A stretch of DNA of 59,076 nt from a virus. The stretch lies in IMG/VR virus record IMGVR_UViG_3300043353_000061, positions 1 to 59,076 of that record. One strand, 5' to 3'. Under the pieces are notes generated by a model that made no database searches, had not been told where the DNA came from, and worked only from the letters and a program-made list of their open reading frames with translations. Positions within the stretch are counted from its first letter, which is position 1. Every line of letters starts with the position of its first letter. The position numbers and the translations under genes were made by a program. Shown piece by piece: positions 30,093 through 57,872 of the stretch.

Positions 30093-30105
30093 GGGGAACC
30101 GGCGT
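30093..30105 (-). promoter_or_regulatory. Late promoter element, fibre operon
   Basis: ACGCCGGTTCCCC on the minus strand, 21 nt before the ATG at 30071. CATGCT at the -10 position. Confidence 0.75.
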
Positions 30106-30107
30106 CC

Positions 30108-30656
30108 TCAGCACGTCGGCGACACCCTCAACACCTCTTGCCGTGCCGCGCTCCGCCCCGGCGCCCACGCCCGCCGGATCACAAACCGCCGACCATTCCC
30201 CCACTGCCGCTTGGCCCAGGCCACCACCCCCCGGCGGGCGCTCTGTTCGCTCGGGAACGGCCGGCAGCCGGGCGTCTCCTCCGCCTCGCACGCCCACTGG
30301 TATTCGGGGTGCCGGCCGATCACCCGGCCGCCCTCCCCGCAGGCGTCCACCTCCGCCCACCACCCACCGGGCGCCCGCCACACCACCCAGCCTTGAGTTT
30401 GCCGCAGGTGCCACACCTTCCGCCAGTTGGTGCCGAACGTGGCCTTCCAGTGGCGAATCAGGGTCTGAGCTGCGGCACGGGCGGTGGGCATCCCGGAGCA
30501 GATGCGTTTCTGGAAGAACCGCGCATGAAACGTGCCGCTCGTCTTGTCCGGGTACACCCCGTGGTAGCCGGTGTCGCTCTGGGGTCGGGTGTCGCGCAGG
30601 TACAGCAGGTCCGAGGCGGTGACTGGTAAAGGGTCGGGCTGTGTCTCGCAGGGCAT
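30108..30656 (-). CDS. AP2-domain DNA-binding protein (182 aa)
   Basis: TGYHGVYPDKTSGTFHARFF followed by TARAAAQTLIRHWKATFG is an AP2/ERF-like DNA-binding domain, frequent in phage homing endonucleases. No nuclease motif is seen in the rest, which is Trp/Arg-rich. An inverted repeat (30660-30711) lies directly before its ATG. Possibly a degenerate or partner-dependent mobile gene. Confidence 0.65.
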   Translation of the reverse strand: MPCETQPDPLPVTASDLLYLRDTRPQSDTGYHGVYPDKTSGTFHARFFQKRICSGMPTARAAAQTLIRHWKATFGTNWRKVWHLRQTQGWVVWRAPGGWWAEVDACGEGGRVIGRHPEYQWACEAEETPGCRPFPSEQSARRGVVAWAKRQWGNGRRFVIRRAWAPGRSAARQEVLRVSPTC

Positions 30657-30659
30657 GGG

Positions 30660-30711
30660 GCGACCGCTCCGGGGGCGTGGTACAATGGGGTACACGTCTC
30701 GGAGCGGTCGC
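30660..30711. repeat. Perfect 12-bp inverted repeat upstream of AP2 gene
   Basis: GCGACCGCTCCG (30660-30671) and CGGAGCGGTCGC (30700-30711) enclose 28 bases that hold a further GGTAC/GTACC dyad. Either an operator pair or a leader hairpin for the gene starting at 30656. Confidence 0.6.
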
Positions 30712-30808
30712 GGTAACACGGCGGCGGGGGTATTGCTGTGGCGGCGTGCCCCCGTCGTCGAACTCGAGTCTTGCACACCGGGCGGAACCGGCAGTTCAGT
30801 TCGGCGCC

Positions 30809-32122
30809 TCACCCCCGCTCGAGCACCGTCTGGTAGCCGCTCTCGGGGCGCACAACCCAGCCCTGTGACTGGAGCCATTCGACCGCCAGCCGGCCCTTGC
30901 CCTCGTACCCTCCCGCCCCTTTCGGCGTGTCGTCGAAGACGATCAGCCCACGATCGGACATCAGCCGTTCGCCCGCCTGCGCTTCCGTCAGCCCGTGCTC
31001 GGCGCATCCCGGCCGGTCCGTGTCCAAACTGTCGAGATAGGCCAGGTCGATGGGTTCGGTGCGGTTGAGCAGGTACGTCACGCTGTCGGCCTCGACCACG
31101 CTCACCCGCGACCACCGGCCGCACAGCGAACGTGACGTCGCGCAGTGCCCCGCGTCGTTGTCCACGCTCACCAGCTCGCCCCCGTGCGTTTCCAGCACCG
31201 CCCCGCACAGCCAGGTGAAGTAGCCGGCGCTCCAGTCGTCGGGCGACCGCACGCACCCCGTTTCCACAACCCGCGGGTGAGGGAAGCGTTCCCGCAGTTC
31301 CGCGAACAGCCATTCCGTCGTTGCCGCCCGCTGCCCCAACTTCTCACGCACCACCCGGCCCACGTCCACCGGCCGGCGACCCGCCGCCATCACCTCGCGC
31401 ACGCCGATGTCGGCCATCCCCCGCCCGCACCCGCCCACCCCGGCGAGCGACGGGGCTTCGCCGAACACGAACCGGAACGGGAACGCGGTCATCACCACCG
31501 TGCCCGGCACCCCGTACAAGCCGGCCAGGTGCGACATGCCGCTATCGTTGCCGTACGAGTGGTCGGCGTTGGCCACCGCGCTCGTCACCCACGCGGGCGA
31601 CTTGTCCCAATGCACCTCGCAGGACCGGCCGAACAGCGCCCGCAGGCGGGGCCGCTTGTGGTTCTCGCCGATCACGACGACCCGCCCGCCGAGCCGTTCG
31701 GCGAACTCCCGCCAGCGGTCCTCCGGCCAGTCGCGTGGCTTGTCGTTGTGCGCGTACGGGGCGATCAGCGCGTACCCCGGCGGGATGACGGGCGGCGGGC
31801 GTTTGACGGCACGCGGGCGGGCGGGGGCGAACGGGGGCAGGTCGCTCGACTTGGCGATGTTGTCGCAATACCACTGCGCCCGGCTCGCACAGGTGCCGGC
31901 CGCCGCCGCCCGCGTCTGGCCGTCGTAATCGGCGGCGGCGTCGATGCCCGTTTCGCCGCGGAACGGCAGGACCGTCACGCCGGGGTGCGACACGCCGGGG
32001 AACCACTCGCTCTTGCGGCAGTGGTAGACGACCTCGCGGCCGGCGTCGGCCAGGCCGCAGGCGGCGTAGAGGCCGGTGACGGCGTCGCCGATGCCGTGGG
32101 CGGAGAGGTGGATGTGGATCAT
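30809..32122 (-). CDS. GT9-like glycosyltransferase fused to SAM-methyltransferase-like domain (437 aa)
   Basis: The N-terminal part (1 to about 250) has the heptosyltransferase look: HLSAHGIGDAVTGLYAACGL, then YALIAPYAHNDKPRDWPEDR, then NDSGMSHLAGLYGVPGTVV. The C-terminal part (about 265-437) has a class I methyltransferase-like core with VVETGCVRSPDDWSAGYFTW, VSVDNDAGHC and LAYLDSLDTD. It may build or modify a sugar on the virion or host surface. Overlaps the stop of the next glycosyltransferase gene (ATGA). Confidence 0.75.
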   Translation of the reverse strand: MIHIHLSAHGIGDAVTGLYAACGLADAGREVVYHCRKSEWFPGVSHPGVTVLPFRGETGIDAAADYDGQTRAAAAGTCASRAQWYCDNIAKSSDLPPFAPARPRAVKRPPPVIPPGYALIAPYAHNDKPRDWPEDRWREFAERLGGRVVVIGENHKRPRLRALFGRSCEVHWDKSPAWVTSAVANADHSYGNDSGMSHLAGLYGVPGTVVMTAFPFRFVFGEAPSLAGVGGCGRGMADIGVREVMAAGRRPVDVGRVVREKLGQRAATTEWLFAELRERFPHPRVVETGCVRSPDDWSAGYFTWLCGAVLETHGGELVSVDNDAGHCATSRSLCGRWSRVSVVEADSVTYLLNRTEPIDLAYLDSLDTDRPGCAEHGLTEAQAGERLMSDRGLIVFDDTPKGAGGYEGKGRLAVEWLQSQGWVVRPESGYQTVLERG

Positions 32123-33240
32123 GCCCCGCTCGCCTCCAGCGCCCGGAACAGGTCGAGCCGCCGCTGCAACCCGCCCGCCTGCTGGGTCAGCCCGGCCGGG
32201 TGGACGAACGGGGGGAGGGGCGGGCCGAGCAGTTCCCACCCCCGGTCACGCCAGTGCTGCCAGTGGGTCGCCGGGTGCGGCAGGTCGTGCAGTTGCCACC
32301 CCGCCCGGAACGTCGTCGCCTTGCTCCACAGTTCTTCGCTGATCCAGTGCTTCGGGATCGGGCGCAGTGGCGGCTCCCAATAGCCGGCGTGCGTCGGCCG
32401 CAGGACCACCAGCCCGCTGTTCCAGTGGATATCCTCGGCCCCGTCGGGAACGCCCACCCCCTGCGAGTCGCACACTTCGCGGAGCTTCGCGGCGAACTGC
32501 GGCATCAGCCCGTGGGCGCTCAGGTCGTCGGAAATGCTCACCCCGATGCGGCCGGGGGGAACCACGTCGAACAGGTCGGGGGCGTCCCGCCGCACCCACA
32601 CGTCGGCGTCCATGCAGATCGTCCCGCCGGGATAGTGCGGGACGAAGTCCTTGAACCGGAACTTCTCCAGCATGAACCAACTCTGCGTTGTGTCGCCCAG
32701 CACCACGTAATCCGCCCCCATCCGCTCGGCGTACCGCTGCTGACTGGCCCGCGTCAGGTCGTGCGTCCGCAACCCCTCGTCGCCCACCGCCACCGTGATG
32801 ACCAGGCGGGGGCGGGTCGGGGTGAGCGTTGGCGGCGGGACGGGTTGCCAGCGGGGGAGTTGACCGGGGACCGGATAGGGATTGGGCGGAACGAGGATGT
32901 AGGGATTCGGGTCGGGGGCGGCGGTCATCTTGGCGGCGGACGCAGAGTAGCCCGGACATTTCTCGCCGCACCCCTGGCACGGACACACCACCGGGCCGAG
33001 CGGCTGAGCCGGGTGGGTGCAGTGCGACCACTTCCGCCGGTGGTCCAACTTCAGTCCGTTCCGTTCGGCCCCGGTCAACTCGTCGCCGACGTGGACGCAG
33101 GGCAGCGACACGCGGGCTGGGGCTGGTGCCGGCCGCTTCGGGGCATTCGCGTGATTCCGCCTGCCGCCGTTGCCGGCGTTCAGGTCGCACCTGTGGCACC
33201 ACGAGCCGGGCGAGCAGGCGTGTGGGATTGCGACGGCCAA
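32119..33240 (-). CDS. GT8-like glycosyltransferase with Cys-rich N-terminus (373 aa)
   Basis: The core (about 145-350) begins RPRLVITVAVGDEGLRTHDL and holds the metal-binding DxD motif GTICMDADVWVRRDAPDLFD and a second segment DIHWNSGLVVLRP. This matches nucleotide-sugar transferases of fold GT-A. The first 100 residues hold several Cys pairs (CSPGSWCHRC, CPCQGCGEKC) and a Pro-rich linker. Works presumably with its neighbour in glycosylation. Confidence 0.75.
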   Translation of the reverse strand: MAVAIPHACSPGSWCHRCDLNAGNGGRRNHANAPKRPAPAPARVSLPCVHVGDELTGAERNGLKLDHRRKWSHCTHPAQPLGPVVCPCQGCGEKCPGYSASAAKMTAAPDPNPYILVPPNPYPVPGQLPRWQPVPPPTLTPTRPRLVITVAVGDEGLRTHDLTRASQQRYAERMGADYVVLGDTTQSWFMLEKFRFKDFVPHYPGGTICMDADVWVRRDAPDLFDVVPPGRIGVSISDDLSAHGLMPQFAAKLREVCDSQGVGVPDGAEDIHWNSGLVVLRPTHAGYWEPPLRPIPKHWISEELWSKATTFRAGWQLHDLPHPATHWQHWRDRGWELLGPPLPPFVHPAGLTQQAGGLQRRLDLFRALEASGA

Positions 33241-33253
33241 GTCAGCCCCCTCG

Positions 33254-33841
33254 TCACAGCCGTGAAATGTACACGTCGGCCTCGCCGCTCACGTACTCGT
33301 CCACCCCGGCGAACAGCACCCGCCCGACGTACTGGTCCGGGTCGAACCCGTCGGCGCACGACGCGGTCGTGTACAGCCGGCCGTCGTCCGGCGCCGTGGA
33401 CCAACCCGGTTCGAGCGTACCCCCGTCGTCGAACGCGAAGTGCGTCAGCCCGTTCCCGAAGAAGATGACGATTGCCAGGTCGTCGCCGGAACAGGAGAAG
33501 CCCATCCGCAACTGCCGGATGTCGGAGCCGGTGCTGCCGAGGCACGCGGTCACGCTCCCGCACGGGGACGTGGGGGTTAGGGGGTCCAGGCGGTAGCTGT
33601 TCGCCAGCCCCATGTCGGGGGTCTGGTTCAAGAAGCTGATGACGAGCGGGTAGGGGATCGTGAAGGGTTGGGCGCACGACCCGCAGGTGACTACCAGTGG
33701 GCACGCATCGCCCGCATCTTCTAAATTCGCATACGGGCCGGTCGTCGCCCCGTCGGGGGGCGTGTACACGCCGTCCTCGTCGGCCTCCACGCCGACCGGC
33801 CCGTCGGCCGTACACCAGTAGGTCGTCGGACAACAGGACAT
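33254..33841 (-). CDS. Hypothetical Cys-rich virion protein (195 aa)
   Basis: Cys in MSCCPTTYWC, CGSCAQPF, CGSVTACLG and FSCSGDD. Beta-rich and without basic patches. Similar Cys-rich proteins follow tail genes in planctomycete phages (impression only). Part of the late leftward run. Confidence 0.65.
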   Translation of the reverse strand: MSCCPTTYWCTADGPVGVEADEDGVYTPPDGATTGPYANLEDAGDACPLVVTCGSCAQPFTIPYPLVISFLNQTPDMGLANSYRLDPLTPTSPCGSVTACLGSTGSDIRQLRMGFSCSGDDLAIVIFFGNGLTHFAFDDGGTLEPGWSTAPDDGRLYTTASCADGFDPDQYVGRVLFAGVDEYVSGEADVYISRL

Positions 33842-33844
33842 GGC

Positions 33845-34777: not shown

Positions 34778-34780
34778 GGG

Positions 34781-35953: not shown

Positions 35954-35956
35954 GTG

Positions 35957-36475
35957 TCACCTCCCCGCGAAGTAGGCGATGTAGGTCACGGACTCGGAGG
36001 CGTGCGAGTCGAGCACCTTCACGTCCTTGTGGGTGGCGTCCACCGGGTAGCCCGTCGTGCCTACCGGGTCGCCGACCGCGTGTCCCGGCCCGCCCGGAAG
36101 GATGGTGCGGGTGTGGGCCGCGGCCCCGAAGTCGAGCAGGTGCTGGTTCGCCGCGGCGTTGCCGATGGTCAACTTGCCGGTCGTCGAGGTGATCGTGATG
36201 TAGCAGGCGACGAGTGTCGTCAGGCTGACGGTCCCGCTGGTGCCGTCCGGGCTGTCCAGCGCCTGCAGGTCAATGGTGGCGCTGGTGCCGAAGGTGAGCG
36301 TGCCCGACTTGAACCCGATCTTCTGGACGCGGTTGGTGATGGCCGCGTCGTCGTACCAGTCCGGCTGGCTGTATTCCTTCACCTTCGGCACGGCGCGGCT
36401 GAACGCCGTCGCGCCGATCGTGCAGGACGTCTCGACCCCCGTCGTCAGCTCGAATGAGGCGTTGGATACGGCCAT
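35957..36475 (-). CDS. Virion protein, tail-tube-like (172 aa)
   Basis: Start at the ATG 36475 (MAVSNASFELTTGVETSCTI), 21 nt from a late promoter. A beta-rich protein with SATIDLQALDSPDGTSGTVS and LVACYITITSTTGKLTI, resembling phage tail tube or adaptor proteins. It is the first gene of the leftward tail-tip operon. Confidence 0.6.
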   Translation of the reverse strand: MAVSNASFELTTGVETSCTIGATAFSRAVPKVKEYSQPDWYDDAAITNRVQKIGFKSGTLTFGTSATIDLQALDSPDGTSGTVSLTTLVACYITITSTTGKLTIGNAAANQHLLDFGAAAHTRTILPGGPGHAVGDPVGTTGYPVDATHKDVKVLDSHASESVTYIAYFAGR

Positions 36476-36496
36476 GTGGTGAGCATGGCCGTTGCC

Positions 36497-36509
36497 GGGG
36501 AACCGGCGT
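36497..36509 (-). promoter_or_regulatory. Late promoter element, leftward virion operon
   Basis: ACGCCGGTTCCCC on the minus strand, 21 nt before the ATG at 36475; CATGCT at the -10 position. Back to back with the rightward copy 6 bases away. Confidence 0.75.
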
Positions 36510-36515
36510 CGGGGC

Positions 36516-36528
36516 ACGCCGGTTCCCC
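36516..36528 (+). promoter_or_regulatory. Late promoter element, rightward tail operon
   Basis: ACGCCGGTTCCCC on the plus strand, 21 nt before the ATG at 36550; CACTCT at the -10 position. Confidence 0.75.
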
Positions 36529-36549
36529 GGCGGCACTCACTCTGGTGGC

Positions 36550-37023
36550 ATGGCGTCCACGAACATCATCGACAGCGTGCAGCAGTTGTTCGCCGGCTTG
36601 GCCACGTTCAGCGGCAAGCCGAGTGCCCTGTGGCTCGGCCCGGTGTGGCCGACCTACGCCGGCTCGTTCACCAACCTGCCGTTCATCCAGTTCAACCACG
36701 ACGGCACCGAGGACGAAACCGACTTCGAGTACACGCAGTTGGAGATGTGGCCGTTCACGTTCGAGATTCGGGCGGAGACCGCCCAGCAGTGCATCCTCAT
36801 CCACGACCGGGTGAAGTTGAACGGCCAGAACCCCGAGGCGCAAGCCGGCTTCCGCTACGCGGCCACGATGACCATGCCGCCGGGCTACTCGTTCAAGGAG
36901 TTCCGCCCGGTCGGAAAGTGGCGGATCAACCCCGTCCCGGCCCAGACCGGGCCGTCCGGCGCCCCGCTCCACCTGCTCACCTTCCAGATGGAATTGCACG
37001 TCCAGCGGGTCACGTTCAGCTAG
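36550..37023 (+). CDS. Tail completion/terminator-like protein (157 aa)
   Basis: MASTNIIDSVQQLFAGLATF, then a beta-rich centre ending with VQRVTFS. Position directly ahead of the tail tube gene and size agree with tail terminator or neck proteins. First gene of the rightward tail operon. Confidence 0.6.
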   Translation: MASTNIIDSVQQLFAGLATFSGKPSALWLGPVWPTYAGSFTNLPFIQFNHDGTEDETDFEYTQLEMWPFTFEIRAETAQQCILIHDRVKLNGQNPEAQAGFRYAATMTMPPGYSFKEFRPVGKWRINPVPAQTGPSGAPLHLLTFQMELHVQRVTFS

Positions 37024-37026
37024 CCG

Positions 37027-37039
37027 ACGCCGGTTCCCC
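37027..37039 (+). promoter_or_regulatory. Late promoter element, tail tube gene
   Basis: ACGCCGGTTCCCC on the plus strand; GAAGGT at the -10 position. Unlike most copies it lies 44 nt from the ATG at 37084, so this mRNA would have a leader of about 23 nt. Confidence 0.65.
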
Positions 37040-37083
37040 CCGCCGGGTGAAGGTGCGGTAGCACACCCACCGGATTCACCCTC

Positions 37084-37569
37084 ATGGCTCACCTTCCTGT
37101 CGCCGGCTCATGGGGGCGGGTCAACCTCGTGAAGGTCGCCCCATCACTGACCACTCCCGTGTTCACGTGGTCGGGGAGTACGGTCGTCGCCCGCCTGACC
37201 TCGTGGCGTGCCCGCGAGTCGAAGGCCGGCGGCACCCCGTCGGTGCTCGACTTCGAGAGCACGGCCGACGCCGAGGGCGTGCTGTACCCGACGCCCATCC
37301 GCGGCGGCACGGCCGAGATGCCATCGATTGATGTCGAGGGGAACGCGGACATCGACGCCACGTCCGGCACCCTCACCATCCTGCCAATGAACGCGGCCGT
37401 GGTGGTGGACTTCCTGATTTTCAAGACGGGCACCATCGGCTACGTCGGCGTGCCGTGCGTGGTGCAGTCGTTCGAGATCGGCGGCAAGGTGGACGACAAG
37501 ACGTTCACCTTCCGGGCCACGTTCGTGGCGGGCGCGCCGCTCAAGAACTACATCGACGTAACCCCGTGA
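37084..37569 (+). CDS. Major tail tube protein candidate (161 aa)
   Basis: A single beta-rich domain (TADAEGVLYPTPIRGGTAEM; GNADIDATSGTLTILPM; FRATFVAGAPLKNYIDVTP). Its own promoter copy, and the tail-chaperone gene right after it, give it the usual place of the major tail protein. Fold not provable by eye. Confidence 0.65.
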   Translation: MAHLPVAGSWGRVNLVKVAPSLTTPVFTWSGSTVVARLTSWRARESKAGGTPSVLDFESTADAEGVLYPTPIRGGTAEMPSIDVEGNADIDATSGTLTILPMNAAVVVDFLIFKTGTIGYVGVPCVVQSFEIGGKVDDKTFTFRATFVAGAPLKNYIDVTP

Positions 37570-37573
37570 GGCT

Positions 37574-39565: not shown

Positions 39566-39566
39566 G

Positions 39567-40136: not shown

Positions 40137-40194
40137 GGCGTCACCCCTGTGGGAAGGTGACGGAGTTGTAGGCAAAGTGGTTCGGTCGAAAAGG

Positions 40195-40437
40195 TTATTC
40201 CGATGGGATGAGATCGGCGGGTGTACATCCCAACGCGCTGGCGAGCCGCTGTAGCGTCGAAATGGTCGGCTCACGTTCGCCCCGTTCCAGCCGGGCGAAC
40301 GCACTGTAGGCCATCCCTGAAGCCGTGGCGGCGTCTTGGATGGACAGGCCGACTTCCTCCCGCTTCTCGCGGAGTCGAACGCCGAACGCCACCGCAACGG
40401 GGTTCGTGTCTTTCTTCTTCTTCGCCACGGCAAGCAC
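40195..40437 (-). CDS. XRE-family repressor (80 aa)
   Basis: GTG start at 40437 with GGAGG 8 nt upstream. The helix-turn-helix is LSIQDAATASGMAYSAFARL (30-49), then ERGEREPTISTLQRLASALG. Likely binds the TACCAATTGGTA-type sites beside it and controls the divergent pair. Could be the lysogeny repressor of the phage or only of this island. Confidence 0.85.
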   Translation of the reverse strand: MLAVAKKKKDTNPVAVAFGVRLREKREEVGLSIQDAATASGMAYSAFARLERGEREPTISTLQRLASALGCTPADLIPSE

Positions 40438-42219: not shown

Positions 42220-42888
42220 TCACGCGATGAGGAGTTTGCGGTAGTTCTTCAGCATGCCGGCGACCACGGGGGAGATGAAGTCTGCGGCCCCTTCCTTTTT
42301 CCGGCTGATGACGTCGGTGTTGATGGTGATCGAAGCGCCGTCCATCGAAGCTGAGGTCACAAGGCCCACCCCCCTCCCGCCCGTCCCCAGGTTGTACCGG
42401 GCCAACGCTTCCATCAGCGCTGCTTCCTGTGCCGCGGACAGCGCGGCGGTCGTGTCGGCGGTATACACCACCTTCAGCGTCCCGGTGTCCGCTCCGATGG
42501 TGCCCGCCAGACGGTCGGGGGCACGCCGCACCTCGTATGGCCAGTTGCACCCCAGGCGGACGATCGCCGTTGATCCGGCTTTCGCCTGCATGTAGTCGGT
42601 GTCTAATTCGAGGAGTGTGTCCGACGCGAACTCGCGGCTGTCGTCCAGGTACACCGCCGACACCGTGACCGGCACGTTGCACCCGACGTCGCGGACGCTG
42701 ACACTATCGCCCCCATTCGGGCCGAGGTACTCGGTGTGCCCGGTGGCGAAGTCGGCCGTTTCCGGATCCCACCCCAAGTAGTCCTTGACCGCTTGTGCGG
42801 CGGCGCTCACGAGCTGAGTCAGGCGGGCATCACGGTCCGTAGACGAGATGCCGAGTTCCGACTTGAAAAGCGGCAACGAGAGCAACAT
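42220..42888 (-). CDS. Head-tail connector, gp6-like (222 aa)
   Basis: FKSELGISSTDRDARLTQLV followed by AAQAVKDYLGWD is the helical opening of phage gp6-like head-tail adaptors. A central beta part and a C-terminal helix (AAQEAALMEALARYNL) follow. The ATG at 42888 is 21 nt after a late promoter. Confidence 0.8.
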   Translation of the reverse strand: MLLSLPLFKSELGISSTDRDARLTQLVSAAAQAVKDYLGWDPETADFATGHTEYLGPNGGDSVSVRDVGCNVPVTVSAVYLDDSREFASDTLLELDTDYMQAKAGSTAIVRLGCNWPYEVRRAPDRLAGTIGADTGTLKVVYTADTTAALSAAQEAALMEALARYNLGTGGRGVGLVTSASMDGASITINTDVISRKKEGAADFISPVVAGMLKNYRKLLIA

Positions 42889-42909
42889 GCCCCAACGATG
42901 GCCCGACTT

Positions 42910-42922
42910 GGGGAACCGGCGT
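42910..42922 (-). promoter_or_regulatory. Late promoter element, connector operon
   Basis: ACGCCGGTTCCCC on the minus strand, 21 nt before the ATG at 42888; CATCGT at the -10 position. Confidence 0.75.
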
Positions 42923-46657: not shown

Positions 46658-48037
46658 TCACTCGCCCTTGAGTTCGGCGTAGGCCGCGGCGATGGTCTGC
46701 AGGGCCGCCAGTTCGTCCTTGTCCACCAGCGTTTGCCCCGGCGGGATGACTTTGGCCTTGCGAACGAGGGCCGCGGGGTACGGGTTGCCGCTGGCCTTCA
46801 CCAGCCGGTCGGGGCGCCACTGGATGCCGTCGAACGCCTGGGACTTCATCACGCCCGTGTCGTCGTCCGTCTCGACGGGTTCGGGTTCCGCGTCCGGGGC
46901 TTCCTCGGCCATCTCTTCGCCCCCCTGGCTCGCGGCCACCTTCTCGGCGGCGGCCTTCGCCTTGGCGGCGACCGCACGCCCGGCCTCGCACAGCTTGGCC
47001 AGGTCTTTCAGCCCTTGCGGGTGCTCGCCCGACTCGCCCATCTGCTCGGCCGCCGCGCAGGCGTCCTCGATCCCCTGTGCGAGCTGGAACAGGCTGGCCG
47101 GGGTCGGCTTCATGTCGGGGGCGGTGGGGGCGGCGTCTTCGGGGGGCGGGGTATCGACCGGAGCGGCATCGACGGGCGGGGTCACGTCAGCCCCCGGCTC
47201 GTCGTCGTACATGCCCGCTTTGTTCACCCGCTTGGGGGCCGTCTTGGTCATGGTGGCTCCTCGGCCGGTGACGCGGTTGTTGGGCTTGAGGTTCAGCACG
47301 TCGGCGAGCGGCCGGGCCGCCTTGCGGATGATGTCGGACGTGGTCGCGGTGTCGCAGAGTCGCAGCGCCTTCTCGGCGCGTGCCATGACCTCGTCTGACG
47401 CTTGCACGTACCCGGCGAACTTGTTCACCGGCAGCTCGCAGGCGGCGGCGTAGCCGATGGCCCGCGACTTGATGAAGTGGAAGGCGTCGCGGTTTTTCAG
47501 CAGTTCGGATTTGCCGAGCGACTTGTACCACCCGCTCACCGGCTGGAACTCGAAGCTCACGCCGGAGAAGACCGAAGGGACCAGCGGGGCCAGTTCCTGG
47601 CTCAGCCGGTAGCACTCGTCCGCGTCGTAGGTGCCGTCGAGTTTCCCCGTCGCCGGGTCATACTTCCGCAGGGTGTGGTTCTCGGCGTCGGCGTAGCTCT
47701 TGAAGAACGTGGTCACGCCGAACGGCAGGGCGATCTCGCCGAGCGTGTCGTCCGGCTGCCCCGCCTTGTTCAGCCGGGGCACCACCTTGTATTCCACTTC
47801 CGCGGTGCCAATGGGCTGGCGGTGCTCGAAGTTGACCAGCCGCTCGTGGACGCTCTCGAAGTCGCTCCAGTCGATGCCGGCCGGGTCAACGCGGTCCCCT
47901 TGCAGGTCCGGTTCGGGGTAGGTGATGAGCGCTTCGGGGGTCGTCCCACTGCCCGCCGCGCTCTTCGTGACGCGGTCGCCCGGCCAGCGGTGGAACGCTG
48001 GCATCGGGGATGCGAACACGCGGCGGGGCAGGTCCAT
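46658..48037 (-). CDS. Prohead protease with scaffold-like tail (459 aa)
   Basis: An HK97-type (S78/U35) prohead protease: the putative catalytic His lies in VNFEHRQPIG and the Ser in FSGVSFEFQPVSGWYK. The second half (about 255-400) is acidic, Pro/Ala-rich and helical, like an internal scaffold. It would process the capsid delta domain. The ATG at 48037 is 21 nt from a late promoter. Confidence 0.85.
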   Translation of the reverse strand: MDLPRRVFASPMPAFHRWPGDRVTKSAAGSGTTPEALITYPEPDLQGDRVDPAGIDWSDFESVHERLVNFEHRQPIGTAEVEYKVVPRLNKAGQPDDTLGEIALPFGVTTFFKSYADAENHTLRKYDPATGKLDGTYDADECYRLSQELAPLVPSVFSGVSFEFQPVSGWYKSLGKSELLKNRDAFHFIKSRAIGYAAACELPVNKFAGYVQASDEVMARAEKALRLCDTATTSDIIRKAARPLADVLNLKPNNRVTGRGATMTKTAPKRVNKAGMYDDEPGADVTPPVDAAPVDTPPPEDAAPTAPDMKPTPASLFQLAQGIEDACAAAEQMGESGEHPQGLKDLAKLCEAGRAVAAKAKAAAEKVAASQGGEEMAEEAPDAEPEPVETDDDTGVMKSQAFDGIQWRPDRLVKASGNPYPAALVRKAKVIPPGQTLVDKDELAALQTIAAAYAELKGE

Positions 48038-48058
48038 GACGGGAGTTTCCCCGCCGCG

Positions 48059-48071
48059 GGGGAACCGGCGT
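48059..48071 (-). promoter_or_regulatory. Late promoter element, protease-capsid operon
   Basis: ACGCCGGTTCCCC on the minus strand, 21 nt before the ATG at 48037; GAAACT at the -10 position. It overlaps the stop of the gene before it. Confidence 0.75.
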
Positions 48072-48838
48072 CAGGACGTGGGGGCTGGGAGTTGGGACGC
48101 GGGCTGAGACTTGGCCCAGAGGAGGGCGGCGACGGAGACGAGATGGTCGGCCCTTCCCAGTGACGCGAACTCGACGAAATCGAAGTTGTCGCGGTCGGTC
48201 CGAACCGTGTCGAGCAATGGCCACAGCGGCCCGACGGACTCGCGGCTTATCCGGTGCCACCGACCGCCGCTCACCGCACCCGACAGCACCACCTCCCACA
48301 CCGGGTGAGCCGCCACGATTGCCGGGCCGTGGGCGAGCACTTCCCACCCGCTCGCGTCGCAGACGGGGCAGTCCGGCACGCCACTGCGGGGGTAGCCGAA
48401 GTAACCGCCCTCACAGTGGCGGCATTTCACACCGCACCAGACGCCCAGAGGGCAGCGCACTTCGTGAATGAACCCGCGATCAGTCAGGCCGGTTGCGATG
48501 GGGGTTAGGACACCCCGTGAGTCGCCTTCGCCGTACCACTGCAACACGCGATCGGCGGAGTACGCCGGGTGGCCGAGGCCGGGGATGTGAAACCACTCCC
48601 GTGCCCCGCCAAAGAACAGGTCGCGCATCCGGGCGACTTGAGCGTTCCATCGGTCGCTCCCGACGGGAATGCCGGCCCTATTCGCTCGGTCGTTGTTGGA
48701 CAACTCGCACTGGATTCGGATCAGTTCCGCCCGCTCCACTTCCCCGTTCTCCTCGAAGTGGTCGGCCAGCACCAACCGGGGCAGGTCGTCATCGGGCGAT
48801 GCGAGGACGGCTTGCAGCAGTGCTTGACGGGTGTCCAT
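48071..48838 (-). CDS. TIGR02996-domain protein, second copy (255 aa)
   Basis: LQAVLASPDDDLPRLVLADH, then FEENGEVERAELIRIQCEL, is the repeat-companion domain. Like the protein at 5603-6430 it carries zinc-ribbon-like Cys pairs further on (CGVKCRHCEGGYFGYP, CPVCDASGW) and an AAHPVWEVVLSG stretch, so the two are paralogues over their full length. It sits in the head gene cluster. Role unknown. Confidence 0.8.
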   Translation of the reverse strand: MDTRQALLQAVLASPDDDLPRLVLADHFEENGEVERAELIRIQCELSNNDRANRAGIPVGSDRWNAQVARMRDLFFGGAREWFHIPGLGHPAYSADRVLQWYGEGDSRGVLTPIATGLTDRGFIHEVRCPLGVWCGVKCRHCEGGYFGYPRSGVPDCPVCDASGWEVLAHGPAIVAAHPVWEVVLSGAVSGGRWHRISRESVGPLWPLLDTVRTDRDNFDFVEFASLGRADHLVSVAALLWAKSQPASQLPAPTS

Positions 48839-48871
48839 AGCCCGAAGTGTACACGGCACTTGAAGTGGTGC

Positions 48872-48915
48872 TATAATTCGGGGCCGGTGGGTGCTACCAA
48901 CACACCACCGGCCCC
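48872..48915 (+). promoter_or_regulatory. Extended -10 promoter and 11-bp leader hairpin
   Basis: TGCTATAAT holds a consensus -10 (48872-48877) with extended TG. Right after it comes a perfect inverted repeat GGGGCCGGTGG (48880-48890) and CCACCGGCCCC (48905-48915) with a 14-base loop, inside the leader of the HNH gene. It may stabilise, attenuate or be an insulating terminator. Confidence 0.6.
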
Positions 48916-48946
48916 TGAACACACCCAACCTTCTGAGAGGCCGGGC

Positions 48947-49726: not shown

Positions 49727-49730
49727 TGGG

Positions 49731-52700
49731 TCAGGCTCCGGTGGGTTTCATCTGGCCCTTGCGGTTCTTCTTGTGCTCCCCGCCCGCCCTGCCGTCCACC
49801 TTCACGAAGTGGAACTCGCCCGCACCCGACGGGTGGAGCGTGTGGCTCCGCAACACGTCGTCCGGGTGGTGGTCTTGAGGCATATCGACCCGGTTCAGGT
49901 TCACCTTGGCTTTGGCGTTCAGGGCCAGCAGTTTCTCTTTGAACTCCGGCAGAGTCAGTTCGGGGTGCGACTTCTTCAGGTCGTCGTACACGTCGGAGAT
50001 GAACGCCTTGTTCGGACCGCTGCCGTACTCGGCGGTTCGTGCCGCCTCGTTCACCTTCGCGGCGATTTCGTCGTCGGTGTGGGACAGAAGAGTTTTGGCG
50101 GGTGTCATCGGCTTGCCTCCCGTGGCAGGTGCGGGAGTTTTGCCGGCGGGCGTCGGCTTGTCAATGTTCGTAGCCCCCACCTTCGCCTTGCCCAGCACAT
50201 ACTCCCCGCCCTTCCCTTCCACAATCCTGTGCCCGTGGCTCCGCACCGTGACGGGGGCACCCGTGGAGACGGAACTATCGCTCTCGTGGTGAACCGGGTT
50301 GAAGGGCACAGTTGACCCCACCTCGCCAATCCTCTCGGCTCCGACGTGCTCACCAGTCAGCAGCGAATCGGCGATCTCGGCGGCGTCGTGCTTCCCAAGT
50401 CTCACGGCGTCCCGGTGGGCGCTCTGTAGCCGGCGGGCGACGAGCCTACGGTGGTCACGATCACTCAGCCCTTCCTCAGCCCCGCTCACGTTGCCGAGTG
50501 CCACTTCCGCTGCGGACGTATCCTTGCCCGCTGCCTGGTGCTTGCCCACTTCCGCCGCGAGGGCTTGCGAGCGGGGGTGGGCGAAGGACAGGGACTCGCC
50601 GTCGGCGGTGGTCAGGGTGTGGGCGGGGGGCGGGGTGGGCGAAGACTCAGCCACCTTCCGTGCGTGTGCCGTCCCCTCGTTCTCGCTCTCCCCGTTGCCA
50701 CCCGGCCCCTTGCCGCCGCCGGTCAGGATCGGCGTGGCGTCCGGGTTCTTCCGCCGGCCCCACGCGGCCGACAGCTCGGCCCGCCGCGCCTTCTCGGCCG
50801 GCGTGAGCGAGCGGAACGGCTTGCGGTTGAGGGACGCCAGTTCGGCGTCGTCCGGGTGGGCCTGCGGCCCATCTGAGGTGGCTACTCCGCTTCCTGCTCC
50901 GTCGCTGGCGAGGTTGGCGATGGGATCGGCTGAGTGCGCACTTCCAGAATCCACCCCGACGGAAGGCTGATTGACGTTTTTTGTTCGTCCTGAATCAACG
51001 GTAGCGTCGCCGGCTGTTGATCCGTTTGGTTTTGCAAGTCCGAACTCCTGAAAGACTTGGTAAGACTCGGGGAACTTCTGTTTTAGTGTGTCTTCGTCTA
51101 CCGCTCCCGTCCACAGACACATACCGAACTCAGCGAACCCCTCGAACGTAGACGCCGCCCCCAAATTCGACAGCCCGCCGCCTGCCATCTCTTTTTCCCA
51201 CGCTTGCCTCCATTCTTCCGTATTACTGAATGAGAAGCTGTCACCGTCAATGACGTGAGCATATTCGTGGGCGTGGTTTTGTGCGAGGCGCTTTGGGTTC
51301 GTCTCCTTGCCTACAACCACCTCGCCGGTTTGACGGTTGTAAGCTGCTGGAACTGTCGCCCCCATCTGCTTCAGTCGCTTCAAACTCTCCTGCTCAGGGT
51401 GTTCTTTAATGAACTGATCCAAGAGATCACGTTCGTTGGACACCGTCAATTTAGATAGGTTTTTGGACAACAAGCCCGCAGCCTTATCCGACATCCGCGA
51501 ACACGCCGTCGCGGCCGCTTTTTTGTGGTCGTATTGATATCCTCTGGGAACGTCTGACGCATCGATATCGGCTACGAGACGGGCTTTTAATGCCTCCGTC
51601 ACCCCCTCCACCTTCTCCCCCGGCCCGACCCCCCGCTTCGGGAACTCATCCCGCGAAGCCTCAGGCTTGCCACCAGTGCCCCCCGCCGCCTGCCCCCACG
51701 CCCCGTACTGACCGCTCACCTTGTTCCCCGCCCGTTGCAGCGCATCCCCGACCCCGTGCCCCTTCTCCCGCCCGGCCTTGATCGCGTCCACGAGCCGTTG
51801 GGCGACGTCCATCTGTAGCCCGCTCACCTTCTGACCCAGCACCCGCAACAGCCCCTTCGCCTCCTCTTTGTTGAGTGCGTGGACGTGGGCGATCAGGTTC
51901 TTGGCCTGTTCCGGGTTGAGCTTGTTCGGGTCCGAAACAGCCATTGCCACGATGGTGTGGCTCTCGTGCTTCTGCTCGGCGGTCAACTCCTTGGCGCCGC
52001 CCTGGTGCGTCTGCACCCCCTCATCCGCCGCTTGGCCCGCCGACTGCCCCCGGTGCGTCTCGCCCTCCGCCGGCTTCACCCACACCACCTGCCGATTCCC
52101 AAGCCGGTTCGTGATGACCTTCCGCACGAGGTGACTTCGATCGCCCTTCGTCACCCGCTCCAGCTCCCACTCGTCTTCCACGTCCTGCAACAGTCGCTCA
52201 TACTCGTCGGGGTCGAACGCCTTCACCCACCGCAGCACGTCGCCCAGCCCTTCCGCCTCTGCTTCCGCCTCCAGCCGCTCTTCCGCTTCATCCGGCACCT
52301 CCTCCAACATCGTCGCAATCGGGTCGTCCAACTCCATCACAGCCGCCTTCACGACTCTCCAATTGCTCCATTCTGATACACAGGCTTCCAGTGCGTACAG
52401 GAACGCGCTGGCGGCGTCTTCTCTCGCCAACGACTTGACCCGCCGTGCCACGGGGATCGCCAGCCTACGGGCCACTGGGAGCGGTTCCAGGCGCCGTGCG
52501 GTCGGCAGGCGCTGGGCGACGGGGAGTTCGCGGGCAATCTGGGGGGCGATGGGGGTGGCGCGACGGCGTGCGATTGGCACAGCCGGCCTTGCCGCTACGA
52601 CCGTTGCCATCCGTCGTTTCAGCACCACCGCGACCTGTTGAAGTTCCTGCGGGTTGAGGGCACTCAGGGCGTCAATCAGGGCCGGCAGCTTCTCCGGCGT

Positions 52701-53327: not shown

Positions 53328-53331
53328 GGGG

Positions 53332-53613
53332 TCACTCCGCCGGTTCGTAGATGGCCGCGAAGATATCCGGCTTGCACGGGTAACATCCGCGGCCGTCTGG
53401 CTCGGCAATGACCCAGTCACCGGGAGCCACCGGCGTCTTGTGCCCGTGGGCCGTGACGCAGAACGCCTCGCACTTTTGGTTCGTCCCGCTGGCGTCCGGC
53501 TCGCTCCACTCGAACACCAGCGGGAGAATGTCGTTGTTGATGAATCGGTGGTTGTCGCCGCCGTCGCGGTACTGCATGGCTTCGACCACCACCGGCTTCT
53601 TGCGAAACTTCAT
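53332..53613 (-). CDS. Small phage protein of the PCKPDIF type (93 aa)
   Basis: MKFRKKPVVVEAMQYRDGGD, then PGDWVIAEPDGRGCYPCKPD and IFAAIYEPAE. This layout is frequent as a small phage protein of unknown role. Coupled to the portal gene (ATGA). Confidence 0.75.
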   Translation of the reverse strand: MKFRKKPVVVEAMQYRDGGDNHRFINNDILPLVFEWSEPDASGTNQKCEAFCVTAHGHKTPVAPGDWVIAEPDGRGCYPCKPDIFAAIYEPAE

Positions 53614-55157
53614 ACCTTGCACACCTCCTCAACCAGCCCCGCGAAGTAATCACTCAGAGACTTTTGCACCTTGCCCGGTAGCGAGCCGGCGGACGCATCA
53701 CCCACGTCCGGCCCTTCCAAATCCCCCGGCGCGAACGGCTCGGCGTTCGGGTTGCCGCCGAGGAGTGCGGCCAGTGGGTCGGCGGGCGCTCCGGGTTGAG
53801 GTCCGCCCGGCATCCCGCCCGGTTGCGGGCTTTGCTTCTGCTGCATCGTCGCCGAGAACTCCGCGGGCGTCACGTCCCCCCACTCCACCGGCTTCATGTC
53901 CACCGAAGCGCGAATTTCATTAATCGTGTAGGTGTTCGCACTTGTGGCCCCCGTGAGCATTGCCCACTGCCGCTCTTTCTGGTCCGGGTCCATGAGCGGG
54001 GCGAGCTTGATTTCGACGCGGTAGTCAGGCCCCCAGTGCGGCAGGATCAAGTCCTTCGTCCACCGCTGCCCGATGCTGTTGGCCTCGCCGCCGAGAGAAC
54101 CCTCACGCCACGCACGGGCCGAAGCGTAAAAGCCTGAGTAGTCCGAATCCGCGAGATAAGCGCACACCGCCGGCACGCCGAACAGGGCCAGCACCGCCGC
54201 CGTGCCCTTCTCGTAGTTCTCCCCGAACGCCATTTTGTCCGGGGTGGAGCCGAGCATCTTCACATCGACACTTTCCCCATCCCCGACGAGGAACCGCTGC
54301 CCGCGGTTGGCCCCGACGAACTTCTCGGCAATCCGCTTGTCCATCTGCTCGAGCTGGTCCGGGCTGGCGCCCGCCATCGCAATCACGGCATCGAGACTCA
54401 GCCCCTTGTCCATCGCACCCTTGATCGCATCGATGGTGCCATTGAGCATGTCCACGAGCTTGTTCCCGCCGGTCAGCGGGCTGTGGCTGTCCCACGGGAA
54501 GATCGGGTGGGGTCGCTTGTGGAGGACCAATCTCTCCCTGGGGATAATCATCGTCCCGCCCGCGTTCCAGCCCAGGAACGGCCCGGTCGAGGTGTACTGG
54601 TACGCGCCACGCGGGTAGTCGGGCGACAGGCCGACGGTGGCGCTCAGGTAGTTCTTGCGGAGGTTCCAGAGTTCCGCCGGCTTGCGGTCGCCCTTGCCGG
54701 GATACCACATCACCGTGCCTTGCCCGAACAGGCAGCGGCACAGGGTGTATTCGGCCAGGAAGTCGGAGGCGGTGTCCTTCTCGTTCGGGTTGGCGAACAG
54801 CCGGCTAATCGGGTGGTCGTGTTCGACCGGCGTCCACTCGGATTCTCGACTGCCGGCGGCGCTGGACGCCTGAGACTTGCTGACCCGTCCCTTCTGCCGC
54901 TGGAGAACAACCACCTCGGCACCGGCCATCGCCGTCATCACCGTGTTCACCGCGATGTACACGGCGCTGTGAAAGCTCCGCGCCATCTGGTGCGCGTCGT
55001 CGGTCCACTGCGCGGGCGGGTCGCGCCGCCGCATCTCGGAGACGCGGAGGAGTTGCTGCCGGTCGGCCGGGGTGCCGGGGTCGTCCCGGAGTGCGGGCAG
55101 ACCGTAGGCGTTGCGGTTGCCGAGGCTGTCCACGGTCACGGTGGGAAGTGCGGCCAT
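53610..55157 (-). CDS. Portal protein, HK97 type (515 aa)
   Basis: FHSAVYIAVNTVMTAMAGAE, DHPISRLFANPNEKDTASDF, GWNAGGTMIIPRERLVLHKR and a C-terminal Gln/Pro/Gly-rich end are typical of phage portals. It forms the dodecameric ring at the head vertex. The ATG at 55157 is 21 nt from a late promoter. Confidence 0.88.
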   Translation of the reverse strand: MAALPTVTVDSLGNRNAYGLPALRDDPGTPADRQQLLRVSEMRRRDPPAQWTDDAHQMARSFHSAVYIAVNTVMTAMAGAEVVVLQRQKGRVSKSQASSAAGSRESEWTPVEHDHPISRLFANPNEKDTASDFLAEYTLCRCLFGQGTVMWYPGKGDRKPAELWNLRKNYLSATVGLSPDYPRGAYQYTSTGPFLGWNAGGTMIIPRERLVLHKRPHPIFPWDSHSPLTGGNKLVDMLNGTIDAIKGAMDKGLSLDAVIAMAGASPDQLEQMDKRIAEKFVGANRGQRFLVGDGESVDVKMLGSTPDKMAFGENYEKGTAAVLALFGVPAVCAYLADSDYSGFYASARAWREGSLGGEANSIGQRWTKDLILPHWGPDYRVEIKLAPLMDPDQKERQWAMLTGATSANTYTINEIRASVDMKPVEWGDVTPAEFSATMQQKQSPQPGGMPGGPQPGAPADPLAALLGGNPNAEPFAPGDLEGPDVGDASAGSLPGKVQKSLSDYFAGLVEEVCKV

Positions 55158-55178
55158 AGCCGTATGGTGGCATGGCGT

Positions 55179-55191
55179 GGGGAACCGGCGT
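55179..55191 (-). promoter_or_regulatory. Late promoter element, portal operon
   Basis: ACGCCGGTTCCCC on the minus strand, 21 nt before the ATG at 55157; CACCAT at the -10 position. Confidence 0.75.
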
Positions 55192-55358
55192 CAGTCGGAC
55201 GTGATGACGGTGGGGGTGTCGGCAACGGGTTCGAGCGGGGGGAGGCCGAATGCCGCCCGGATCTCGTCCGACGTGAACGGGAAGATCGAAGGCGCTGACT
55301 GCCCGCCCTCCTCTTCCACCACCTTCGGGCACCCGTTCACCACCTTGATTGCCTTCAT
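55191..55358 (-). CDS. Hypothetical small protein (55 aa)
   Basis: MKAIKVVNGCPKVVEEEGGQ, then SAPSIFPFTSDEIRAAFGLP. Two bases after the large terminase. Its stop overlaps the start of the portal promoter element. Unknown. Confidence 0.6.
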   Translation of the reverse strand: MKAIKVVNGCPKVVEEEGGQSAPSIFPFTSDEIRAAFGLPPLEPVADTPTVITSD

Positions 55359-55360
55359 GG

Positions 55361-56785
55361 TCACATCCCCGCGAAGTATTTCCGGCCACTGTTCACGTAC
55401 ACAGAGACGTAACGTAGACAGTCGCAAGAATGGTCGTTGTGTTCGATGGGTTCGTCCTTCGCCTGATCCGGCTTCGGCACCTTCCAAGTGTACCCGACGA
55501 TTTCCTCGAGCAGAGACAGTGGCTTGCCTTCCGCCTTCAGTGTCGGATCGGGTCGGTGCCGGCGGGCGTCCGGGCGAAACATGATGCGGGGCTTCCCATC
55601 CGCCTGAACATCAAATAACCCCTGCACCAACTGAATCCCTTTGTCCCGGTCGCGTTTGTCGGCCGGGCTGGCGTGGACGCTGAACGGCTGAGACTTGCCC
55701 TCCACTGTCCGCTCGCCCTTGCAGTACTGGTTCCAGGTGGCGGTGTTCTCCGGGTCGTGGTCCGCGACCACCTTTTCCGGGGGCGGCTCGTCGCCATCGC
55801 TCACCAGTTTGGCACACTCCTTGGCCACCTCCTCCACCCGTGTCCGTGTCTTGTAAATCTCGCGGTACAGGTGCATCCGCTTGTCCCCATCAATGGCCCA
55901 CATCTGCACTACCAGCGGCTGCACGAACCCCCAGTCGATGCCCCACACCCGCCGCCACTCTTTGGGAGGTTCCCACCCGGCGGGGTGGTGATGCACTTGG
56001 GGATCATAGCCGTCGTACACCAGCCCTTCCGCCGACACCCACAGCCCACGCTCGAAGCGGTTGCGGCGGGCGCCGGTCATGCGGCCGAGTGTTTCCAGGT
56101 ACGCCTTGCCGGCCGGCGTCCAGTCGCCGTTCAGGTAGAACGCCGGGTTGTCCTTGTGCGTGCCGCTCAGCATGGTCAGCGGGCCGTCGCTCTGCCGGCG
56201 GTACAGCCAGTGCGTCGGCGTCGTCGGGTTGCAGTCCATCAGGATTTGCGGGCACGGCGTCTTGCCGTTCCGCAGTGACCGCAACAGCGTCTCGTAGGTC
56301 TCGAGCGTGACCCCCTCTTCCGTGGCTTCCTGAATGTAGATCGCGTCGTATTCGCTACTCAGCGTCTTGCCCGGATCGTCCAGCCCGGCGACCACCATCT
56401 CGGAGCCGTTCGGGAACTCGTAACTCTGCCGCACCCGTCGCGTCACCGGCCGGCGGGTGAGGACCGGGTGCCGCTCGCCGAGGATCTTCTCCCACGTCAC
56501 CAGCCCCGATTGCGTGAGGCTGGCCCGCGTGCCCCGGCAGAACAGCACCCGGCAGCCGGGGTGGGACTCGAGCAGGCGGTAACAGCGGGCGAGCAGTGCG
56601 TAGGACTTGCCCGTGCCGGCCGGGCCGGCGAGCAGCAGCTCCGGTGCGGTCGAGCGGTAGGCGTCCCGATTCGCCCCGTGGAACTGGAACCGCAGCAGGG
56701 GCGACCCGGCGAGCGACAGCAGCAACCCGTCCACCCGCTTGCGGTCGGCCGGGTTGAGGGCGGCGAGCAGGGCAGCGGGTGTCAC
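55361..56785 (-). CDS. terL: Large terminase subunit (474 aa)
   Basis: GTG start at 56785 overlapping the upstream stop (GTGA). Walker A GPAGTGKS at 54-61, Walker B-like AIYIQEATEE at about 148-157. The RNase H-like nuclease domain shows VWGIDWGFVQP, VVADHDPEN and HNDHSCDCLRY acidic positions. It packages DNA into the prohead. Confidence 0.92.
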   Translation of the reverse strand: MTPAALLAALNPADRKRVDGLLLSLAGSPLLRFQFHGANRDAYRSTAPELLLAGPAGTGKSYALLARCYRLLESHPGCRVLFCRGTRASLTQSGLVTWEKILGERHPVLTRRPVTRRVRQSYEFPNGSEMVVAGLDDPGKTLSSEYDAIYIQEATEEGVTLETYETLLRSLRNGKTPCPQILMDCNPTTPTHWLYRRQSDGPLTMLSGTHKDNPAFYLNGDWTPAGKAYLETLGRMTGARRNRFERGLWVSAEGLVYDGYDPQVHHHPAGWEPPKEWRRVWGIDWGFVQPLVVQMWAIDGDKRMHLYREIYKTRTRVEEVAKECAKLVSDGDEPPPEKVVADHDPENTATWNQYCKGERTVEGKSQPFSVHASPADKRDRDKGIQLVQGLFDVQADGKPRIMFRPDARRHRPDPTLKAEGKPLSLLEEIVGYTWKVPKPDQAKDEPIEHNDHSCDCLRYVSVYVNSGRKYFAGM

Positions 56786-57072
56786 TCGCCCCTCACGCGG
56801 TAGCCGAGTTCGGTGGCGATCGGTTCGCCTTCCGCCGACTTCGCGGACGGGATGGCCGCCAGGAGTGCCGCCCGGCCGGCGTCGTAGCCGGCGCGGAATT
56901 CGGGCGTTCCGAAGTGGTGCCAGCCCGGCGTGAGGTCGGCCTCCTGTTGGGTGTACGCGAACCCTTCCACGCCCAACCGCCACCCGCCGAACCAGCGGAA
57001 GGCGGCCTGCTCTTGGGGGGTCGTAGTAGGTAATGCCGGCAGCATGACCGGCGACCTGTCTGGCTTGCTCAC
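56782..57072 (-). CDS. Hypothetical protein between terminase genes (96 aa)
   Basis: The ATG at 57072 overlaps the TerS stop (ATGA). Has TPQEQAAFRWFGGWRLGVEG followed by a FRAGYDAGRAALLAAI helix. Not recognised. Confidence 0.65.
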   Translation of the reverse strand: MSKPDRSPVMLPALPTTTPQEQAAFRWFGGWRLGVEGFAYTQQEADLTPGWHHFGTPEFRAGYDAGRAALLAAIPSAKSAEGEPIATELGYRVRGE

Positions 57073-57680
57073 TCGCCGCCCTCTGGAGTTGTGGCCGTCC
57101 CACCGAGTATCATCCGCACCAGTGCGATCTTCTCCGCCTCGGTCATGCCGTCCACCGGCTTGTCGTCATCCTTGAACAACCCGAGCTTCTTGCACAGCTT
57201 GTCGAGCGCGTCGAGCTTGCTGTACAGCTTGTACTCGACCTCCTCGACCTCCTCGACCAGATCATCGGACGCCTTCGACTTCACCTTCCGCCGCTTCACC
57301 TTGGCCACCTGGACGGCCTTCCGGGCGAGCGGGCGGATGCGGCTCGGCGGCTTCGCCCGGTCGAACTCGCCCTCGACCTCCTCGAACACCTCGCCGATGT
57401 CGGAGAACGCGACCGCCGCCAACTCCTTCAACACCTTCAGCCCGGAGATGCGGAGGTCGCGGGCGTACCCCTCCCGCATCGCCTGGAGTTCCGCCTGAAT
57501 GCTAGGGTTCGCTAGAAGCTTTGACGATTCGCACCGGGCCGTCCCGTAGGAGTGTTCGGGGAACGCCTTCAGGTAGGCCTGGGTGGCGTTGCCGTCGAAC
57601 GCGATGTACTCCTCGAGGAATCGCCGCTGTGACGTGGTGACTCCCAGGTCGCTCACCAACTTGGGCGTGCCCGTGGACAT
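57069..57680 (-). CDS. terS: Small terminase subunit (203 aa)
   Basis: SQRRFLEEYIAFDGNATQAY, ESSKLLANPSIQAELQAMRE and the KVLKELAAVAFSDIGEVFEE part match Terminase_2 small subunits, with the DNA-binding helix-turn-helix first and a C-terminal oligomerisation helix. It recognises the packaging site. Confidence 0.9.
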   Translation of the reverse strand: MSTGTPKLVSDLGVTTSQRRFLEEYIAFDGNATQAYLKAFPEHSYGTARCESSKLLANPSIQAELQAMREGYARDLRISGLKVLKELAAVAFSDIGEVFEEVEGEFDRAKPPSRIRPLARKAVQVAKVKRRKVKSKASDDLVEEVEEVEYKLYSKLDALDKLCKKLGLFKDDDKPVDGMTEAEKIALVRMILGGTATTPEGGE

Positions 57681-57683
57681 GGC

Positions 57684-57872
57684 TCAGGTATCTTGGCCCG
57701 TGGGCGGGGAACCGGCGTTGGGCTGGTGTTCGGCGGCGTGCAGGAAGTGCTGCCGGGTGTCACGCTCGCCGGCCTTGTACCCCGCGATGTACCCGAGTAT
57801 CGGGTAGCCAACCGCCATGAGGATCAGCAGGGCAAGAGTGCCCCGCGCCCGGTCTGCTTCGTTAAGTTGCAT
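57684..57872 (-). CDS. Small membrane protein (62 aa)
   Basis: LALLILMAVGYPILGYIAGY is one membrane helix; a polar tail follows. Overlaps the previous gene by 11 bases. Its 3' end contains the terminase late promoter element. Confidence 0.55.
   Translation of the reverse strand: MQLNEADRARGTLALLILMAVGYPILGYIAGYKAGERDTRQHFLHAAEHQPNAGSPPTGQDT
57706..57718 (-). promoter_or_regulatory. Late promoter element, terminase operon
   Basis: ACGCCGGTTCCCC on the minus strand, 25 nt before the ATG at 57680. CAAGAT lies one base off the usual -10 position, so transcripts would begin a few bases before the ATG. Confidence 0.65.

Follow-up and report, generated by a model that had tools for sequence, protein, structure and literature searches.

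The virus record IMGVR_UViG_3300043353_000061 of IMG/VR was analyzed over its entire length of 59,076 base pairs (bp), hereafter the window, with a focus on the 13-mer ACGCCGGTTCCCC that precedes its late operons. This element is most probably (at roughly 0.92) the upstream box of a two-part, phage-specific and mostly leaderless late promoter, as judged from sequence comparisons. The original prediction of a phage-specific late promoter is strongly supported by an A-N3-T motif at a fixed spacing from the box, by start codons at the predicted transcription start (+1), by recurrence of the arrangement ahead of orthologous operons in all five phages and by the lack of it in the host family. Both the -10 element and the spacing that suggests leaderless messages are additions to the earlier observation of the 13-mer. 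No paper on promoters of Gemmataceae phages was found in the literature searched.

Copies of the 13-mer and predicted promoter layout in the window

A scan of both strands found eight perfect copies of ACGCCGGTTCCCC, exactly where the original prediction had placed them: at 30093, 36497, 42910, 48059, 55179 and 57706 on the minus strand and at 36516 and 37027 on the plus strand. The chance expectation for an exact copy on both strands, calculated from base composition (10 G/C and 3 A/T bases, 66% GC, 118 kb), is about 0.01. Allowing one mismatch added no copies in the window, so that only the eight exact ones stand, and a single copy with two mismatches (20567, minus strand) lies away from any start. 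The early half (1-30000), said to be free of the element, indeed holds no exact copy. The 57706 copy overlaps an upstream open reading frame of weak prediction.

Gene calling and family scans revealed that every copy is directed at a structural gene or operon. On the head side these are the terminase small subunit, the portal, the head protease followed by the capsid, and the head-tail adaptor; on the tail side they are a pair of divergent tail operons, one further tail gene and an operon leading to the fibre genes (fibre gene at 25931-27679 by family scan). Family models matched the terminase small subunit (PHROG), portal, capsid and adaptor, and the match of the head protease was weak. The claim that the copies front late blocks thus holds as regards structural targets, but the names tail tip and tail tube rest on synteny with relatives and not on family models. 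The phage is temperate (integrase at 17842-18867), and Rfam gave no match in the window.

The distance from the end of the box to the ATG is 21 nucleotides (nt) in six of the eight copies, 25 nt in one and 44 nt in one. When the flanks were aligned, an A at +11 and a T at +15 after the box appeared in seven copies; the eighth shows them shifted by 1 nt. In a sigma-type -10 element, the bases that matter most are the A at -11 and the T at -7, and the A-N3-T between box and start has precisely their spacing, with its T six nucleotides before the start codon. In six copies, counting seven bases on from this T leads to the first base of the ATG. The predicted layout therefore has the box at -34 to -22, near -30 and in place of a -35 element as in MotA-type promoters, and the -10 element at -12 to -7.

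Specifically, the terminase small subunit promoter (57683-57718, minus strand) has its box at 57706-57718, its -10 element CAAGAT at 57695-57690 and its predicted +1 at 57683, leaving a 3-nt leader before the gene (57069-57680). For the next three promoters, all on the minus strand, the predicted +1 coincides with the ATG: that of the portal gene (53610-55157) at 55157-55191, with the box at 55179-55191, CACCAT at 55169-55164 and +1 at the A of the ATG (55157); that of the head protease (46658-48037) and capsid at 48037-48071, with the box at 48059-48071, GAAACT at 48049-48044 and +1 at 48037; and that of the head-tail adaptor (42220-42888) at 42888-42922, with the box at 42910-42922, CATCGT at 42900-42895 and +1 at 42888. 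The same holds for both arms of the divergent pair. The left arm, the tail operon promoter (36475-36509, minus strand), has its box at 36497-36509, CATGCT at 36487-36482 and +1 at the ATG of gene 35957-36475 (36475), and the right arm (36516-36550, plus strand) has its box at 36516-36528, CACTCT at 36538-36543 and +1 at the ATG of gene 36550-37023 (36550). The promoter of gene 37084-37569 (37027-37061, plus strand; box 37027-37039, GAAGGT 37049-37054) has a predicted +1 at 37061 and a 23-nt leader. Finally, the fibre-side operon promoter (30071-30105, minus strand; box 30093-30105, CATGCT 30083-30078) has its predicted +1 at the ATG (30071) of its first gene, 29919-30071.

Recurrence in related phages and predicted leaderless starts

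A search with the window capsid protein retrieved 69 related loci, and the two closest long contigs among these relatives have the late gene set in common with the window. In relative G002 (58% capsid identity; 73% GC), where gene context was taken from homology and an in-frame start check, CGGCAGGTTCCCCC occurs in 10 exact copies, with an A at +12 from the end of its 13-mer in nine and a T at +16 in all ten, one base beyond the places seen in the window. Next, 2.9 million viral contigs of IMG/VR were scanned for GCAGGTTCCCC followed by 10-11 nt, A-N3-T, 6 nt and ATG, which returned G002, G121 and G122 only. The latter two have portal, capsid or protease genes of the families found in the window, with capsid identity as low as 31%, and many further boxes. 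The DNA pattern by itself had led back to relatives, whose kinship their genes then confirmed. The box of the four relatives (G001, G002, G121 and G122) is GCAGGTTCCCC or a near variant. When every GCA[AG]GTTCCC in them was taken, whatever followed it, A-N3-T stood at one single offset in 27 of 33 boxes versus about one expected, and at either of two offsets in 28 of 33 (P ~2e-31; genome frequency of A-N3-T 0.026). An A at -11 and a T at -7 at a fixed distance from the upstream element are found in 7/8 window copies and 27/33 relatives' boxes. Sequence, spacing, conservation and gene position are observed features of the element.

The promoter pattern was not found among more distant capsid relatives (666 kb altogether). 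A portal alignment search recovered only G001 and G002 again; the capsid alignment of the four gave no match among genomes and the portal none among viral contigs. Two contigs with the strict window 13-mer, 21 nt and ATG (L001, L002) were short and without further full boxes, and 11 contigs matching the two-part pattern GCCGGTTCCCC had neither a structural homologue nor a second full box; all were treated as chance matches.

As for the host, the ten best matches of a wider capsid alignment in genomes were all from Gemmataceae or other planctomycetes, and window gene 48071-48838 has a TIGR02996 domain, a model whose name refers to Gemmata obscuriglobus. Relatives of this gene, some in two copies, also lie beside the portal or protease in G121 (13952 and 18634, both minus strand) and G122 (46338 and 59498, both minus strand). 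Across 95 Gemmataceae genomes, the full promoter with start codon gave 12 matches versus 14 in the reversed control, that is, no excess, and box plus -10 without start codon gave 18 versus 7, with at most two per genome. The pattern is therefore not a host regulon. In genome G047 of this family, a perfect G002-type promoter (contig C15 near 19075; L196, L230) lies directly before a small helix-turn-helix-like gene, and possibly derives from a prophage or satellite.

The start codons of the conserved head genes lie at or next to the predicted +1. For the portal, the in-frame checked distances are 0, 1, 0, 0 and 2 nt in the window, G001, G002, G121 and G122, and for the head protease they are 0, 0, 2, 0 and 0 nt. 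An in-frame start at +1 to +4 together with a weak Shine-Dalgarno sequence was found for seven of the eight window copies and for 10/10 portal and protease genes, and both genes are predicted to be leaderless in all five phages. The -10 T precedes the start codon by about 7 nt in many copies. Pairing with the anti-Shine-Dalgarno sequence has a median of -3.6 kcal/mol for the 16 genes with a close promoter and is weaker than the -7.3 kcal/mol of the 302 other genes (p = 6e-7); in the window, the close-promoter genes are without the Shine-Dalgarno sequence present before most others. Other copies have predicted leaders of 14-37 nt, some with a Shine-Dalgarno sequence. In G002, copies with leaders retain A-N3-T, and three of them have gggggag or gggggaa ahead of the start; the spacing hence tracks the -10 and not the start codon. 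A-N3-T thus holds its place relative to the box wherever the start codon lies, which makes the element very probably part of a promoter rather than a translation signal. For the divergent pair of G122 (33985, plus strand; 34041, minus strand), GTG codons at +1 were rejected as leaderless starts, being out of frame with the predicted tail-gene starts, and leaders of 26-28 nt are probable for these messages.

Late-promoter copies were also observed within the head protease gene, in G121 (L215; 5709, minus strand), in G122 (L219; 42007, minus strand) and weakly in the window (47424, minus strand), followed by in-frame starts that would give 291, 240 and possibly 242 amino acids, respectively. In the window, this speculative and weak internal promoter (47384-47424, minus strand) consists of ACAAGTTCGCC, with three box mismatches, and then GCAAGCGT, with an in-frame ATG at 47386. 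These copies look like a nested scaffold gene with its own promoter, resembling lambda Nu3 within C.

Several points weigh against the reading as a late promoter. The test of the A-N3-T columns in the relatives came after their discovery in the window, and the one-base slip allowed in it was picked after seeing G002. The box of G001, which stands at portal, protease and tail genes, is degenerate (GCARGTTCC). Several boxes of G121 and G122 precede small or non-structural genes or sit inside genes, so that the restriction to late genes is strict in the window alone. Moreover, a classical -35 element would lie some 4-5 bp farther from +1 than the box does, and comparisons of sigma factors and regulators found no reader gene common to all five phages.

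From these patterns we infer that the element acts as a promoter late in infection, where its transcripts start, and that its reader is phage-made. In the proposed mechanism, a factor recognizing the box at -34 to -22, in place of the normal -35, would direct RNA polymerase to a second part, a degenerate sigma-type -10 of the form [G/C]A-N3-T in which the A (-11) and the T (-7) hardly vary, and transcription would begin at the start codon's first base. With such a start, the portal, protease/capsid, adaptor and tail operons would yield leaderless mRNAs, and the box would lie outside the message; a few copies would drive messages with a leader of 14-37 nt, some of them with a Shine-Dalgarno sequence. 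A two-part promoter with base-exact predicted starts would make late operons and true start codons readable from sequence in uncultured phages, and relatives identifiable by DNA pattern alone. The planctomycete phylum is suspected of using leaderless mRNAs (PMC5397173), and the promoter would be a direct test for leaderless translation of structural genes in it.

Candidate readers and alternative explanations

Three options for the reader (a phage activator, a phage sigma factor or a host factor) are alternatives inside the promoter explanation. We lean, at somewhat less than even odds, toward an activator coded by the phage that would stand in for the -35 contact normally made by the host housekeeping sigma, in the style of T4 MotA, whose box, at -30, takes the place of the -35 element beside a normal -10 (PMC6755090). 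The centre of our box, at about -28, is close to that position, phages in which no sigma gene is detected retain the promoter, and a degenerate -10 with strong A-11 and T-7 suits host sigma region 2. However, the only common DNA-binding protein, a Cro/C1-type helix-turn-helix protein of 77 amino acids (40195-40428, minus strand) and as such a possible regulator, has homologues in G001 and G122 and not in G002 or G121. No homologue of MotA or AsiA was detected among the part of the proteins that was scanned. A protein common to G001 (31545, plus strand) and G122 (6493, minus strand) was dropped as a candidate reader, having neither a window homologue nor a DNA-binding domain.

Slightly less probable is that the reader is a FliA/WhiG-like sigma factor of 285 amino acids (11644-12501, minus strand), a candidate in the window phage only, acting with or without a second candidate, a sigma-like protein of 240 amino acids (4030-4752, minus strand). 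The former matches Pfam models of region 2 (46.3 bits) and region 4 (29.6 bits) and TIGR02937 (63 bits), all above cut-off, with FliA/WhiG as best matches; the latter has a region 4 of the RpoD/RpoS type and a weak region 2. FliA sites contain GCCGATAA, and GCC runs up to the -10 A in 5/8 window copies. The late promoters of phage 7-11 are also bipartite and read by a phage sigma (PMC8948821). The original prediction had offered the two sigma-like genes as the reader, and both are real sigma-70-family proteins, but their role as a general reader is unsupported. Sigma regions 2 and 4 were not detected in G001, G002, G121 and G122, whose records may be incomplete (and phage sigmas can diverge strongly), yet all four use the same promoter; the sigma genes are therefore only possible readers, not general ones. 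Among the promoter-bearing genomes, a phage sigma gene, as expected for late promoters of the 7-11 type, is detected in the window only, and the scan of IMG/VR with the window sigma (11644-12501) returned no relative of it. Apart from this question, one temperate phage here carries two unlike sigma-family genes, FliA/WhiG-like and RpoD/RpoS-like, and none of the other phages studied has a relative of either.

An alternative sigma or activator of the host, with few sites of its own, is an unlikely reader. It would fit the planctomycete origin of the closest capsid matches in genomes and would account for the lack of a phage reader common to all, yet its regulon should be visible among the 95 Gemmataceae genomes, where the counts were 12 versus 14 and 18 versus 7 with at most two in each. 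A reader that is phage-made and non-sigma would be a new way of taking over the host polymerase. We doubt, while entertaining it, the wider scenario of a planctomycete phage clade that makes most virion proteins from leaderless mRNAs, under an unrecognized non-sigma phage regulator replacing the -35 contact and with the protease-internal copy giving a nested scaffold protein.

Readings other than a promoter fare much worse. A repressor site similar to the asymmetric 13-mers of L5-type mycobacteriophages, the stoperators (PMC9283540), would suit an asymmetric intergenic 13-mer oriented with transcription in a temperate phage, but a pure stoperator needs neither a -10 nor a fixed distance to the start codon, and the copies are all on late genes, which makes it very improbable; repression by a protein overlapping the promoter may nevertheless occur. 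Helix 45 of 16S rRNA is itself a stable hairpin. That a transcribed box pairs with this helix as a translation element can practically be dismissed, even though start codons lie at a fixed distance from the box and GCAGGTTCCCC is the exact complement of its GGGGAACCTGC (11/11 bases in eight Gemmataceae genomes), as it leaves unexplained the single-offset A-N3-T, kept even with a start codon 24-30 nt further, and we take the match as coincidence since the box should not be transcribed and its window and G001 variants break the pairing.

Further repeats and comparison with known systems

Other repeats were observed in the relatives. In G001 (L092-L094; e.g., 25690, 41533 and 51898), the 12-base repeat TTAGGCGCGTAA has eight exact copies, mostly intergenic and several fused to a Shine-Dalgarno sequence, and forms a second repeat class separate from the late promoter; a 9-base tandem array (ggctcgcgc / ggctgacgc) lies in a predicted gene of the same phage (L093, about 26113-26266). 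A 34-kb capsid relative with 44% GC (G019; L082, L083) has about 14 copies of a TACAGCATGGCTATTC-like repeat, two others (L034 and L050) have AACCCCATC three times, 24 nt before ATG, and in G122 (51459-51771) CCGGTCAACCCGACCGGGCCGCACA is repeated ahead of two adjacent small genes.

Among known systems, the late promoters of phage 7-11 (phiEco32-like; GTAAtg-(16)-aCTA) are likewise two-part, stand upstream of the late genes in a single group of phages, keep comparable genome positions across relatives, and have starts 6-9 bp from the proximal element (PMC8948821). They differ from the window promoter in their unrelated sequence and other spacing, in having a known phage sigma as reader and, in the part of the account available, in messages that are not described as leaderless (PMC8948821). 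The middle promoters of T4, a MotA box plus -10, also have a box near -30 in place of -35 beside a sigma -10, but their box sequence is different, they serve middle genes and they follow no leaderless rule. The Start-Associated Sequences of cluster K mycobacteriophages are asymmetric 13-mers too, at a fixed place before start codons and mostly in one orientation (PMC3203893). However, they lie 3-7 bp from the start, contain AGGAG and belong to the non-structural half, whereas the window box lies 21 nt away in the structural half, with no Shine-Dalgarno sequence and no GGAG within it (PMC3203893). The stoperators of L5-type phages are, like the window 13-mer, asymmetric and oriented 13-mers in short intergenic gaps (PMC9283540), but they are bound by the immunity repressor, stop transcription and have no attached -10 or start-codon spacing. 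Finally, bacterial leaderless promoters likewise have a -10 about 7 nt before the start codon and no Shine-Dalgarno sequence, whereas here a conserved box upstream belongs to the arrangement, which is linked to a single set of phage operons.

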